Source: Robiginitomaculum sp. (GTDB lineage: Bacteria > Pseudomonadota > Alphaproteobacteria > Caulobacterales > Maricaulaceae). Taken from it: DNA of 34,391 bases. This document shows positions 2,356 through 6,107 of the stretch, one piece after another; position 1 is the first letter of the stretch; every line of letters starts with the position of its first letter. The translations under genes were made by a program, and so were the position numbers. The DNA lies in NCBI GenBank assembly GCA_016765135.1, contig JAESQN010000050.1:1-34391 (forward strand). Direction: 5' to 3'. The notes under the pieces are model-generated. The model was given only the letters and a program-made list of their open reading frames with translations, made no database searches and was not told the origin of the DNA.

Positions 2356-2790
2356 TTAAAACTCACCTTTTATGTGCTTCGCGCGCTTCCTTATCACCGC
2401 AATTATATCGTCAAATATTTCGGATTTGATGCCTTGGGATTCAAGATTTGAGCGCAGATCTTCGGATTTTTCTGCGCAAACATCAGCCATTTTCATGAGC
2501 TGATTTTTAAGGTTTTTGTATGCTGCTTTTGTATCAGGAACCAAGAGGTTCCAATGCCGTAAAAACACATCATCGGGCTTGTATTTTTTACCAATTTTCA
2601 TGGCCATGCGGATTGATAATTCGGGGTAAACTTTTGTGCACAAAAGATCATAAGCAGGGGCAAGATGCGGCTTGGCATTTGTGTAGAGCAAAGAATAGTT
2701 CTTGCCGTGCGCGTCTGCATTTCCGATTAGATATACCCAGAATCCTGAATGAACCATTTTTTGCTTGCGGTTTTTGTTTGGATTGATTCT
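2356..2790 (-). pseudogene. hipA: hipA kinase-toxin, C-terminal fragment
   Basis: The open frame here encodes about 143 residues that match the C-terminal lobe of HipA-type Ser/Thr kinases, the toxins of HipBA pairs, which phosphorylate aminoacyl-tRNA synthetases. Visible motifs are the catalytic loop LIGNADAHGKNYSLLY, the metal-binding segment APAYDLLCTKVYPELS and the following RMAMKIG. Full HipA proteins are about 400-440 residues. Here everything upstream of roughly KNRKQKMVHSGFWVY is missing, because the IS630-type element abuts at about 2790. No hipB antitoxin is nearby. The fragment lacks the ATP-binding N-lobe and should be inactive. Confidence 0.82.
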
Positions 2791-3902
2791 AAGGGGGTAT
2801 GAGGCGATCTTTTTCATTGTCACCGAGCGAACGTCGTGAACTTTTGTCGGTGCTGCGTCGGCACAAGGAGGACGGTCTGGTTGTACGCCGTGCCAACGCT
2901 CTGATTTTGCTGGATGACGGCAGGAGTTCCATGGCGATTGCTGATTTTCTGTATCTTGATGTCGGGACAGTGCGCACATGGCGACGCGCCTATGAAGCCG
3001 AGGGGATGTCCAGCCTCGCCATTGCTGGCTATTCAAAGCGCGAGGGCTATCTGAGCTTTGAACAAGAAGTCGAATTACGGGTGCATTTGACCACCCATCC
3101 GATGCGGACTGCGGACGAGGTTCGTGCCTATATTGAACAGACTTACGGGCAGGAATATTCCAAACCGGGTGCGATGACCGCAGGGAATGCCTCTTGTGAA
3201 AATTGATGAGCCGCCTTGGCTTTACTTATAAGAAGCCCAAGCTTTTACCGCTACAAGCCAGCCCCTAATCTCAAGAGAAGTTCATCGCGGGTTATGAGGC
3301 TTTATGCACCGGGTTACCTGCTGATGAAGCGATTGTATTCGCCGACGCAGTGCATCCTGAACATCAAAGCCGCCCGGCTTATGGCTGGTTTCCCAAGGAT
3401 CGTCAACCGGTGTTGGCCGCAAATTCAGGCCGCAGGCGGATGAATATTCACGCCGCCCTTAATCTTGAAACCTTCCAGTTCCAGCATGTGGAAGCCGTAA
3501 AAATCAACGCGGAAAGTACATTGCACCTGCTCAACAAGATAGAAACTACCTATCCGGACAAGCGGCATATTCATGTGTTTCTGGATAATGCCCGCTATCA
3601 CCATGCGCGGATTCTGAAACCGTGGCTGGGCGCAAATAATCGGCGGATAAAACTACACTTTCTGCCCGCCTATGCACCGCATTTAAACCCGATTGAGCGA
3701 CTGTGGGGTGTCATGCACAAGCATGTAACCCATAATAAACATTATGCCAAATTCAATGACTTTGCTGCTGCTATTTTGGCGTTCTTCTACAAAACCTTGC
3801 CAGACAAGTGGCCAATATTTCGTGATACCATAACCGATAACTTCAGAGTCATAACCAGCGAAAAACATATGCTTGTTCAGTGAACGGGGTATATATACCT
3901 TA
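2790..3902 (+). mobile_element. Degenerate IS630-family insertion sequence
   Basis: A block of about 1.1 kb, the usual IS630 size, carries a broken IS630-type transposase gene. I set the ends at TA dinucleotides (2790-2791 and 3901-3902), because IS630/Tc1-type elements duplicate a TA target and both flanking gene fragments stop there. The terminal sequences share AGG and TAT motifs but do not form a convincing long inverted repeat, so the ends are good to about 10 bp. The left flank is the 3' part of hipA and the right flank is the 5' part of a different gene. The element therefore marks a deletion junction as well as an insertion. Confidence 0.72.
2799..3883 (+). pseudogene. IS630-type transposase, disrupted by frameshift and nonsense codon
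   Basis: The N-terminal part (2799-3206) encodes a helix-turn-helix region (VVRRANALILLDDGRSSMAI; VGTVRTWRRAYEAEG). The catalytic part lies in another frame (from about 3206 to 3883) and holds all three acidic residues of the DDE domain: FADAVHPEH, VFLDNARYHH and HLNPIERLWG. The frame changes near 3185-3206, where the sequence between GAMTA and SRLGFTYKKPK carries extra bases. A TAA at 3266-3268 then interrupts the second frame, probably a GAA-to-TAA change judging from the following SQEKFIAGYEAL. An intact protein would be about 350-360 residues. With two independent lesions it should be unable to transpose unless complemented in trans. Confidence 0.8.
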
Positions 3903-4060
3903 GCAGGTTTGTATCTGATACGAGGGGCTACGCTAAAACTCATTGCGTTGCGGATAATGCCAATTTTCCCCGTCTCGGTCGCGAGCATGTATTTAGCCAG
4001 TTCATTGGCTGAAATGCGAGGGTGTTCGTAAGTTGTTGTGTAATTTGGAGAACGTGCCAT
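3903..4060 (-). pseudogene. 5' fragment of unknown gene cut by the IS630-type element
   Basis: Reading from the ATG at 4060-4058 gives 53 residues beginning MARSPNYTTTYEHPRISAN and continuing ELAKYMLATETGKIGI and PRIRYKPAK before entering IS sequence. The composition is that of a genuine protein, and a possible Shine-Dalgarno (AAAGG) sits 9 nt upstream. I cannot name the family. The frame continues into the element as VYIPRSLNKHM, which is IS-derived. An alternative start at 4096 adds 12 residues. The fragment and the hipA remnant on the far side of the element are on the same strand but belong to different genes. Confidence 0.55.
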
Positions 4061-4316
4061 GAGTGAAGACCTTTTCGTAGTTGATAGAATCGACAAGAAT
4101 CGCTCGATCTGTATATCAACGCTTGCAAAAAGTACAGTTGCAGGAAATGACGTAGCTCATTTAGGCAACGAGACAGGCTATTTCATTTATGAAGTAGACA
4201 ACCGCCCAAACTTTGGCGGTATAATTGTGCTCGCTAAGGCCGCTTCATCAGAAGCGGCTGTGCGGTTAGCGGAAATGTGGATGTCAAAGACTAAGGCAAT
4301 GCACCAGTCGATTTAA
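4059..4316 (+). CDS. Hypothetical protein, 85 aa
   Basis: Small acidic to neutral protein (opening MSEDLFVVDRIDKNRSICI, with GNETGYFIYEVDN and AAVRLAEMW later). A good Shine-Dalgarno (TTTGGAG, 8 nt before the ATG) and sensible residue composition support it as a real gene. I see no signal peptide, membrane segment or motif I can name. Its ATG overlaps the start codon of the truncated gene on the opposite strand by 2 nt, and its 3' end overlaps the 3' end of rhuM by 26 nt in convergent orientation. It is therefore squeezed between two minus-strand genes. It may belong to the accessory island; the function is unknown. Confidence 0.55.
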   Translation: MSEDLFVVDRIDKNRSICISTLAKSTVAGNDVAHLGNETGYFIYEVDNRPNFGGIIVLAKAASSEAAVRLAEMWMSKTKAMHQSI

Positions 4317-5403
4317 TGGTTTCTATGGCCTTATCAAAATCTGATTTGTAGCTATCGTCTTGTATGGGCTTGAACTTAGTAAATTCTACAGCGGCAGTTT
4401 TATCTGCGGTCGTCTTCTTAACCCGCCCATAACCTCTCAAAATTTGATACTCGTTGAAGTTTAAGAAGTCATCCAGTTTGCTATGCCAGTCTTTCATGGC
4501 CATGCGTCTACCTTTCTGGGCAAGGTTCTCTGCATAATCTAAAAACATGGTCACGAGTCTGTTCAGGTCTGATACTTCGTCCTCAGTGAGGTAATTTTTA
4601 GCTACTGATACATCAGACTTACGAATTTTGCCGCCAGAGCCTTGGTTTGCCCAAGTGGTTAACCCCATATTCGGCAGGTTATGGTCTGCTCGAAGTTTAA
4701 CAATTTCGGCAGCGGTCATTCCCGTAACTGCGTATTCAAGTTTGTTTTGAGTATGGGAAAAGAATTTTTTTGTCAGATCAGATCTAGCGTCATAATCATG
4801 ACTACACTGAATGTAGATTTCAGTAACCTTTTGATAGAAACGCCGTTCAGACGCTCGTATATCACGAATGCGCTCAAGCAATTCATCGAAATAATCTTTT
4901 TCGAATAACTGACTTCCCTGTTTAAGGCGGGCGTCATCCATAGCAAAGCCTTTGACAAGGTACTCTCGCAAAATTGAACTAGCCCACTGCCTAAACTGAA
5001 TAGCTTTTCTAGAATTAGCGCGGTAACCTACAGATAAAATGGCATCGAGATTGTAATGTTCAACTTTATAAGTTCTGCCATTTGGTAGAACTGTTGCAAT
5101 TTTTGCAACAGTTCTATCTTTAACAAGCTCGCCAGAATCAAAAATGTTCTTTAGATGTCGAGAAACCCCTGATTTATCGATTCCAAATATTTCGGTCATC
5201 GCAGATTGAGTGACCCACACATCTTCATGGGCAACAAAAACCCGTATTTTATCAGCGCCATTACCAGAGCTATAAAATAGAAAGTCACTTTGTTCAGGTA
5301 TTTCAGGTGTGGCAAATGAAAGCGTTGTTGATGACATGAGATTATCAGCAATATCATCAAAATCCGCATCAATAGGTTCAATTATGCTTGGTACTTTAGC
5401 CAT
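4291..5403 (-). CDS. rhuM: RhuM family protein
   Basis: Full-length member (370 residues) of the RhuM ('virulence protein') family, common in pathogenicity and defence islands, often near restriction-modification genes; the molecular function is not established. Family hallmarks are all visible: the helix-turn-helix-like VWVTQSAMTEIFGIDKSGVS about residues 62-82, HLKNIFDSGEL, the YNLDAILSVGYRANS segment with FRQWASSILREYLVKGF, then DYFDELLERIRDIRASERRF, TGMTAAEIVKLRAD, PNMGLTTW, KNYLTEDE and the closing LDDFLNFNEYQIL. The N-terminus carries about 45 extra residues before the conserved core. Its ATG (5403-5401) overlaps the end of an upstream reading frame, as in a translationally coupled operon whose first gene has been lost to the IS1595-type element. 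Confidence 0.85.
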   Translation of the reverse strand: MAKVPSIIEPIDADFDDIADNLMSSTTLSFATPEIPEQSDFLFYSSGNGADKIRVFVAHEDVWVTQSAMTEIFGIDKSGVSRHLKNIFDSGELVKDRTVAKIATVLPNGRTYKVEHYNLDAILSVGYRANSRKAIQFRQWASSILREYLVKGFAMDDARLKQGSQLFEKDYFDELLERIRDIRASERRFYQKVTEIYIQCSHDYDARSDLTKKFFSHTQNKLEYAVTGMTAAEIVKLRADHNLPNMGLTTWANQGSGGKIRKSDVSVAKNYLTEDEVSDLNRLVTMFLDYAENLAQKGRRMAMKDWHSKLDDFLNFNEYQILRGYGRVKKTTADKTAAVEFTKFKPIQDDSYKSDFDKAIETIKSTGALP

Positions 5404-5506
5404 TAGTAAGTTCCTTATAAGTGAGGCGTTTGCCTATACCAGCTTTAATGGTAGAGGAAATAAAGTCGAGAGTCCCGGTTTTTGCGGCGTTTATGGCGAT
5501 TTGAAA
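5396..5506 (-). pseudogene. 3' remnant of the gene once upstream of rhuM
   Basis: A 36-codon open frame (containing AAKTGTLDFISSTIKAGIGK and RLTYKELTNG) ends in a TAA at 5398-5396 that overlaps the rhuM start codon in the arrangement ATGGCTAA. Such overlaps normally mark translationally coupled genes, and the sequence is protein-like. The frame ends abruptly at about 5506, exactly where the IS1595-type transposase frame stops resembling its family. I read this as the C-terminus of a gene truncated by the insertion. Whether it was a restriction-modification subunit, as rhuM context often suggests, cannot be told from 36 residues. Confidence 0.5.
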
Positions 5507-6107
5507 ATTCGTTCACATAGCGGTGTAAGGTTTGTGCCTTGGTATTCGGGATAGGTTTGGCAGTGACTTTTCCGCCGCGCTTTAATACACCAATGACAGC
5601 CGTTTTACCAACCGCACCACGGCCTTTATTGAGTTTCTTGCTCTTATGTTTGTTCTTTTCTTTGCCGCCAATAAAAGTTTCGTCAACTTCGATTGTGGAG
5701 CCGCTATCATTATCGGCATTACTATCGCTCGACAACCAACATTCACGAATACGTTGTGATAGAAACCAAACGGTCTTTTGAGTGACACCAAGTTCTTTAG
5801 CCATTTGTACGCTGGATATGCCTTTGCGGGCAGTTGTAAGCATATACATAGCCATTAGCCACTTGTGAAGTGGTAAGCGAGATTCAGCAAGCACTGTGCC
5901 TGTGCGAACGCTAAAATGCTTACGGCAAGATTTACAACGATAAGCCATTGGCTTGTGGTTTTTGGTTTCGGTAATGGTATGGCTACCACAGTGAGGGCAA
6001 ACAGGTTGACCAGCCCAGCGTTTTTCTTCGAAGTAAAGGCGAGCGGATTCCTCATTAGGGAATTTCTCAAAAAACTGATATAGGCTTATAGTTTCTGGCT
6101 TAGTCAT
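5445..6107 (-). pseudogene. IS1595-family transposase, C-terminally truncated
   Basis: 220 residues against a family norm of about 300. The N-terminal zinc-ribbon is complete (VCPHCGSHTI ... YRCKSCRKHFSV, about residues 36-66), followed by the helix-turn-helix-like region with SVQMAKELGVTQKTVWFLSQRI and the first catalytic acidic residue in STIEVDETFIGGKEK. The conserved GVLKRGGKV and NTKAQTLHRYVNEF are present. After this the protein runs into unrelated sequence (SNRHKRRKNRDS) and stops, so the later acidic and His/Asn residues of the ISXO2-like DDE domain are absent. It should be catalytically dead. Confidence 0.82.

Follow-up and report, generated by a model that had tools for sequence, protein, structure and literature searches.

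The window, i.e. the whole analysed stretch of 34,391 nt, contains two genes that lie head to head near position 4059. They were designated S (plus strand) and B (minus strand). The genes and signals of this region are as follows.

2356–2800, minus strand: hipA-like gene, 3' fragment, on the far side of the insertion element (Pfam domains)
2799–3883, plus strand: IS630-like transposase in two pieces (2799–3206, HTH part; 3350–3883, DDE part)
3897–4060, minus strand: gene B, 5' remnant with about 55 of roughly 250 codons (homology to full-length B)
4047–4050, plus strand: Shine-Dalgarno site of S, GGAG, antisense to B codons 4–5, spacing 8 nt
4058–4061, strandless: CATG with both start codons (25 of the 27 homologous pairs share it)
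4059–4316, plus strand: gene S, intact, 85 aa, a conserved small protein without family assignment (homologues, pN/pS)
4070–4073, minus strand: Shine-Dalgarno-like site of B, AAGG, antisense to S codons 4–5, spacing 9 nt
4291–5403, minus strand: rhuM-family gene, tail to tail with S and overlapping it by 26 bp

An earlier note on this DNA had described two divergent ATG codons that overlap by two bases. This description is correct: the ATG of S occupies positions 4059–4061 (+), that of B positions 4060–4058 (−), and positions 4059–4060 are common to both. The note had also assigned to each gene a plausible Shine-Dalgarno site inside the coding region of the other, which agrees with GGAG at 4047–4050 and AAGG at 4073–4070 (−), and had rightly reported the tail-to-tail overlap of the 85-codon gene with rhuM. 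In the S frame, the ATG at 4059–4061 is the sole ATG, GTG or TTG codon between the previous stop and codon 12. Upstream of the conserved PR motif of B, the only other such codon on the minus strand is a TTG located 12 codons upstream, the use of which would make the overlap longer.

The minus-strand frame was considered a fragment in the earlier note, and comparison with homologues showed it to be a stump of B that ends at the insertion element. Full-length B proteins normally comprise 236–261 aa, while homology of the window copy extends from position 4060 to about 3897, and the open frame beyond this point is chance read-through to 3683. The element, whose IS630 label is our own naming based on the HTH and DDE_3 domains, was found in the genome as a single full copy, with one 81-base partial match elsewhere. 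Since the rest of B is absent beyond the element and the 3' end of the hipA-like gene is found there instead, the event was more than a simple insertion and involved a rearrangement. The cassette of the window is a relic, in which the IS630-like element and the rearrangement took away most of B and left S intact; with B destroyed, the arrangement is no longer able to serve a pair. The same genome also carries a C-terminal piece of a B-family gene (L034, C26:1146–1458), located after a truncated conjugative-transfer gene (T4SS-DNA_transf); it may come from the same original gene as the window remnant or from another.

Homologous pairs and the shared start codons

With one sequence as query, 6 of 299 genomes of the order yielded S-type proteins, the copy in one of them (G119) containing a stop; a profile search detected them in 5 of 385 genomes of the class. 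B was detected in 8 of 299 genomes of the order, in 6 of 385 of the class, in 4 of 43 genomes from the order of G402, in 1 of 2 from the order of G523, and in 4 of 279 genomes of a phylum draw. The window's own genome is included in the tallies for S (6/299, 5/385) and B (8/299, 6/385, 4/279). With the short window fragment of B as the sole query, matches were obtained in 2 of 299 genomes, its own included. Further loci came from genome contig records (8) and from IMG/VR (3, 6, 3 and 11, with repeats). The eight named contig records bear alphaproteobacterial names; the lineage was looked up for Algimonas and Chelatococcus. Carriers with a named strain include Chelatococcus asaccharovorans DSM 6462 (L024) and Stella sp. 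ATCC 35155 (L017/L021), neither of which is known to be pathogenic. A tblastn search with three B proteins against plasmids and with one against phage records gave no match, and neither did the first viral scan with the S alignment.

After duplicate removal, 27 loci with both main-clade genes and four pairs of a distant form were retained. The dropped fetch duplicates were L001, L002, L008, L035, L067 and L073 (identical to the window); L005, L009 and L030 (L010); L004, L019 and L027 (L012); L006 and L029 (L013); L007, L022, L028 and L069 (L014); L036 (L015); L039 (L016); L021, L038 and L045 (L017); L037 (L018); L054 (L044); L055 (L046); L059 (L047); L060 (L048); L057 (L049); L062 (L050); and L061 (L051). 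By coordinates, L003 lies inside L011, and L071 is the same gene as L032. Outside the 27 loci remained copies of S without B (L011, in which S contains a stop, and L058, L064, L065 and L066) and copies of B without a detected S (L033; L070/L072/L074; L034). In L011, the S-like frame broken by the stop is located at 831–1040, and no B was found adjoining it. In L070/L074 (G786), an insertion of about 1.1 kb interrupts the distant B, next to a frame resembling a transposase by eye, and a profile search found no S there.

In five loci with several CATG pairs (L014, L020, L046, L052, L063), the pair matching the aligned starts of the family was chosen by hand; the B start of L026 was read from the sequence, and the starts of L010 and L056 were set by hand. 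With these assignments, the start codons overlap in all 27 main-clade divergent pairs (the B start of L056 being inferred), and in 25 of them the ATG of S and the ATG of B lie in one CATG. Of the two exceptions, L010 has CAATG, a TTG start of B and one shared base, and in L056 the B codon at the shared site is ATC, the nearest in-frame ATG lying 9 nt further into S, with an inferred overlap of 11 bases. This geometry spans a strongly diverged family: clustering of the 24 full-length B proteins gave 20 groups at 70% identity, 9 at 50% and 6 at 40%, and the least similar pair is 18% identical. Recurrence of the same geometry in 25 of 27 homologous pairs indicates that the overlap in the window is more than chance.

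At 24 of 27 loci, B contains no in-frame ATG, GTG or TTG between the shared start and the conserved PR motif (in L041 this motif was not found, and codons 2–12 were scanned for later starts instead), so the overlap at these loci cannot be shortened by re-annotation. The exceptions are L010, L018 and L052, where a later GTG or TTG could shorten it. S has no other start in codons 2–12 at 18 of 27 loci. Alternative starts upstream are present in many loci and would lengthen the overlap. An in-frame ATG of B located 9 nt upstream of the shared start was seen in L014, L020, L024, L046, L049, L053 and L056; it arises from a C as the last base of S codon 3 followed by AT at the start of codon 4, and in L014 and L046 it gives a second, nested CATG pair.

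In the four distant divergent pairs, the ATG starts are separated by gaps of 21 (L032), 29 (L040), 28 (L042) and 19 nt (L043), and in L032 the sequence GGAGGAG precedes S inside the gap. The CATG is also lacking in 4 of 4 copies of S without B (L058, L064, L065, L066), which correspond to about two independent cases as L064–L066 are near-identical, L011 being outside this count. S and B, located on opposite strands with overlapping 5' ends, are a divergent overlapping gene pair, and their overlap is conserved across relatives and is not a start misannotation.

Both genes showed low pN (0.08–0.33) against high pS (0.57–0.87) in 10 comparisons with the window left out; in two of these, S of L051 was read only up to its stop. 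For the S genes of the window and L063, pN was 0.34 and pS 0.85; the corresponding comparison of B was left out because the window frame there continues into the insertion element. Methionine is aligned at the shared start in both families. Judging from these substitution patterns, S and B are both under purifying selection. Distances between S proteins correlate with those between B proteins (r 0.86 over 23 loci, a value reached in 0 of 1000 shuffles), which indicates that the pair is inherited as a unit.

One survey of overlapping genes (PMC2478687) counts 38,563 co-directional, 3,035 convergent and 457 divergent overlaps. The divergent class is therefore the least frequent, with 457 of 42,055 well-characterised overlaps (the total being our sum of the three classes); the earlier note likewise called genuine head-to-head overlaps rare. 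This rarity (1% of overlaps), together with the finding in the same survey that 75 of 75 divergent overlaps longer than 60 bp were start misannotations, is what speaks for one of the two frames being spurious and the other the only gene, an option raised in the earlier note, which expected one of the proteins to be without any homologue in that case. Both families proved to be conserved: their homologues evolve like proteins, with pN low and pS high, and the pairs retain their divergent order and overlapping starts; in addition, the methionine at the shared start is aligned, a later start of B is missing at 24 of 27 loci, and the overlap is 2 bases rather than more than 60. A false frame is thus excluded.

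S and B resemble the divergent overlapping prokaryotic pairs described in the surveys (PMC2478687, PMC2174442) in their location on opposite strands with overlapping 5' ends. They differ from the divergent overlaps as counted in PMC2478687 in having embedded ribosome-binding sites and in preserving the same short overlap exactly while the family has diverged deeply. Retention of a two-base divergent overlap at such depth is notable, its rarity being that of the PMC2478687 counts.

Properties of the S and B proteins

S and B are divergent overlapping genes of two families described in none of the libraries searched. The proteins fit no family in Pfam, NCBIfam, PADLOC or PHROGs, with only weak partial hits. 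Pfam and NCBIfam searches gave no hit at the curated cut-off for either protein, a comparison of 16 members of B with Pfam showed no PD-(D/E)XK family, and four B proteins compared with NCBIfam and PHROGs gave weak partial matches (best PHROGs E 0.005 over 33 residues). PADLOC analysis of eight proteins from complete pairs and the S protein of the window found no match; neither a Pfam toxin-antitoxin family nor a PADLOC model was assigned to the S and B proteins searched. No paper on the S/B gene pair was among the literature matches listed, which does not prove its absence.

The AlphaFold2 model of B, built on 16 sequences, had a pLDDT of 92. According to the Foldseek analysis, its top six matches among solved structures are AdnAB, Dna2, AddB and Cas4 (probability 0.90–1.00, TM 0.41–0.51), with a best E of 2e-3 and none at or below 0.001. 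In the viral library BFVD, the top match was a haloarchaeal virus protein, a PD-(D/E)XK nuclease (E 6e-4, TM about 0.5). Acidic residues are conserved in B at positions 92 (16/16), 139 (14/16) and 203 (16/16). The (D/E)xK motif was found in at most 1 of 16 sequences at any column after 125, so the catalytic motif is not seen as a conserved feature and nuclease activity is doubtful. B additionally has a helical N-terminal part, with a weak HTH match in one member. The likeness of B to RecB/Cas4-like PD-(D/E)XK nucleases lies in these Foldseek matches of its predicted structure; it differs from them in having neither a Pfam family match nor a conserved (D/E)xK. With its putative RecB/Cas4-like fold, B probably handles or binds nucleic acid.

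The model of S, built on 22 sequences, had a pLDDT of 76 and a beta-beta-alpha-beta-beta-alpha order of elements, with no convincing fold match in Foldseek (best E 0.37). Solved relatives were also sought by sequence. For B, only a centrosomal protein and STIM1 fragments were obtained, with E of 0.03 or worse. For S, the only candidates were helical-repeat PPR-type chains with E down to 3e-14, a value judged spurious since it results from summed repeats of one 23-residue stretch. S and B represent two conserved unnamed protein families, one of them with a predicted RecB/Cas4-like fold.

Embedded signals and possible regulation

For the sequence upstream of each start, the pairing energy to the anti-Shine-Dalgarno was set against values obtained after synonymously resampling the codons of the opposite gene. 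With 500 resamplings per locus, the embedded Shine-Dalgarno sites gave z values of −5.9 for S and −4.4 for B over the 27 loci, which are related, so that these values are not independent tests; in this run, other DNA entered the codon-usage tables of the three loci with a broken B, and the table for L010 was out of frame. When the measure was slid along the genes in a second run (60 resamplings), the junction gave −4.7 for S and −3.9 for B. Among the control windows, which began at codon 13, the 94 antisense to B had a mean of +0.36 and a lowest value of −2.94, and the 25 antisense to S a mean of +0.85 and a lowest value of −0.56. In the window itself, the Shine-Dalgarno-like site of B is no stronger than in synonymous shuffles (a share of 0.44 of 500 was as strong or stronger). 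Across the family, the opening codons of each gene carry, in antisense, the predicted Shine-Dalgarno site of the other to a degree that synonymous codon choice does not account for. Synonymous conservation near the junction was mixed: it was raised for S codons 2–9 in subfamily G1 (0.62 vs 0.36) and for B codons 2–25 in subfamily G2 (0.40–0.48 vs 0.36), and was not raised for B in G1 (0.22–0.32 vs 0.36) or S in G2 (0.33–0.42 vs 0.39).

A sigma-70-like site for B was found at about −47, within S codons roughly 15–24, and 0 of 200 synonymous shuffles reached it, both in G1 and over all 27 loci. The site is clear in six loci (L047–L051, L056), where the Arg-Gln codons CGT CAA provide the −35 box TTGACG. 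Of the other paired loci, only L046, L052 and L063 have Arg-Gln at this place, not spelled CGT CAA, and the unpaired S copies L064–L066 spell it CGG CAG. In G2 alone, a B promoter at a fixed position was unsupported (23/200 shuffles). For S, a promoter at a fixed position was reached in 94/200 shuffles over all loci and 162/200 in G2; only G1 gave a low value (3/200). When promoters were sought with the position left free, the result did not reach significance (z 0.25 for S, 1.4 for B), and no B promoter stands out in the window (2.5 vs a shuffle mean of 5.3).

Since both predicted ribosome-binding sites are located inside the opposite gene, both transcripts would have to begin there, so that their 5' ends would overlap. 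The promoters of S and B would face each other, and the two mRNAs would have complementary 5' ends covering both start sites. Polymerase interference and pairing of the 5' RNAs could then lead to mutual inhibition, favouring one gene at a time, with S as the small co-inherited partner or antagonist of B. Mutual interference appears to be the likeliest consequence of the arrangement, and coupling by transcription interference, the second option of the earlier note, fits the embedded ribosome-binding sites and the promoter-like site of B in six loci; we infer this regulation from the geometry. S and B are two real genes of an undescribed two-gene cassette seen in alphaproteobacterial genomes and predicted phage DNA, arranged head to head on one CATG, and on balance we consider it probable that their expression is mutually inhibitory. 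It is a more tentative suggestion that the cassette may be a mobile switch, in which the shared start, reciprocal embedded ribosome-binding sites and face-to-face promoters would ensure mutually exclusive expression at the level of the DNA alone, without a dedicated regulator.

In phages P2 and 186, face-to-face promoters serve divergent genes with overlapping 5' transcripts and alternative expression states, and the coding sequences are not known to share start codons. S/B would resemble these switches in its predicted facing promoters, overlapping 5' transcripts and alternative expression states, and differs in the shared start codons; S is at most a putative repressor. In an excludon, one long 5' leader runs over the neighbouring gene, whereas the coding sequences of S and B meet on the start codon, and their predicted leaders are short and reciprocal. 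The likeness to the excludon (review: PMC7154746) consists in divergent genes with mutually antisense 5' parts of the mRNAs, presumed for S/B, from which mutual repression would be expected. Among gene overlaps, the divergent kind is both the rarest and the one most often doubted, and S/B offers a clean natural system for asking whether such overlaps regulate expression or merely persist.

The main rival to mutual inhibition is that the arrangement persists with no regulatory benefit, the shared starts and embedded signals blocking separation of the genes by small mutations. The embedded signals are exactly what would make the overlap hard to undo, and it is kept down to 18% identity of B although nothing shows regulation; L010, with its one-base overlap and TTG, and L056, with the B start apparently 9 nt upstream, look like small shifts that keep the interlock. 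On the other hand, the gaps of 19–29 nt in the four distant pairs, including L032 with GGAGGAG in the gap, show that a separated form is viable, and the maintenance of two sets of embedded signals suggests, without proving it, some benefit. We regard such passive persistence as a possibility that falls well short of being the expected explanation. Leaderless mRNAs occur in bacteria, and the geometry would allow the S and B transcripts to start back to back at the shared CATG and barely overlap. This is improbable, as both Shine-Dalgarno sites exceed the synonymous expectation over the 27 loci and the promoter-like site of B at −47 would imply a leader of about 35 nt.

It is also conceivable, though rather unlikely, that the genes form a toxin-antitoxin or defence pair in which S neutralises B. 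A small and a larger protein are co-inherited, and their distribution is patchy, with B carried by 8 of the 299 genomes from the order. Some pairs are located near phage genes: the neighbour survey, in which ten proteins were given to Pfam, revealed phage integrases (L020, L052) and a gene of the terminase small subunit (L050), as well as genes with the SocA/Panacea antitoxin domain within 1 kb of the pair (L018:1881–2468, L044:3818–4336, L053:6350–6832). Moreover, B is broken and S intact in 3 of 27 pairs (the window, L026 and L063), as would be expected of a dispensable toxin. In contrast, B is intact in L051 despite the internal stop in S, and the distant B of L033 has no detected S, which together argue against a strict antitoxin role for S; the lack of a PADLOC match mentioned above also speaks against a toxin-antitoxin or defence pair. 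Finally, toxin-antitoxin genes are mostly co-directional, whereas S and B are divergent.

Genomic context and mobile elements

Twelve of the 27 pairs are located on IMG/VR contigs, i.e. predicted phage DNA; 11 were found only there, and L017 was also obtained as L045. This share reflects where the searches were made. In the window, a gene of an IS1595-type transposase (5445–6107) adjoins the rhuM-family gene at 4291–5403. A similar transposase frame, recognised by eye, is present in L023 (1323–3288) beside an unrelated gene that adjoins S; the genes next to S in these two loci are perhaps passenger genes.
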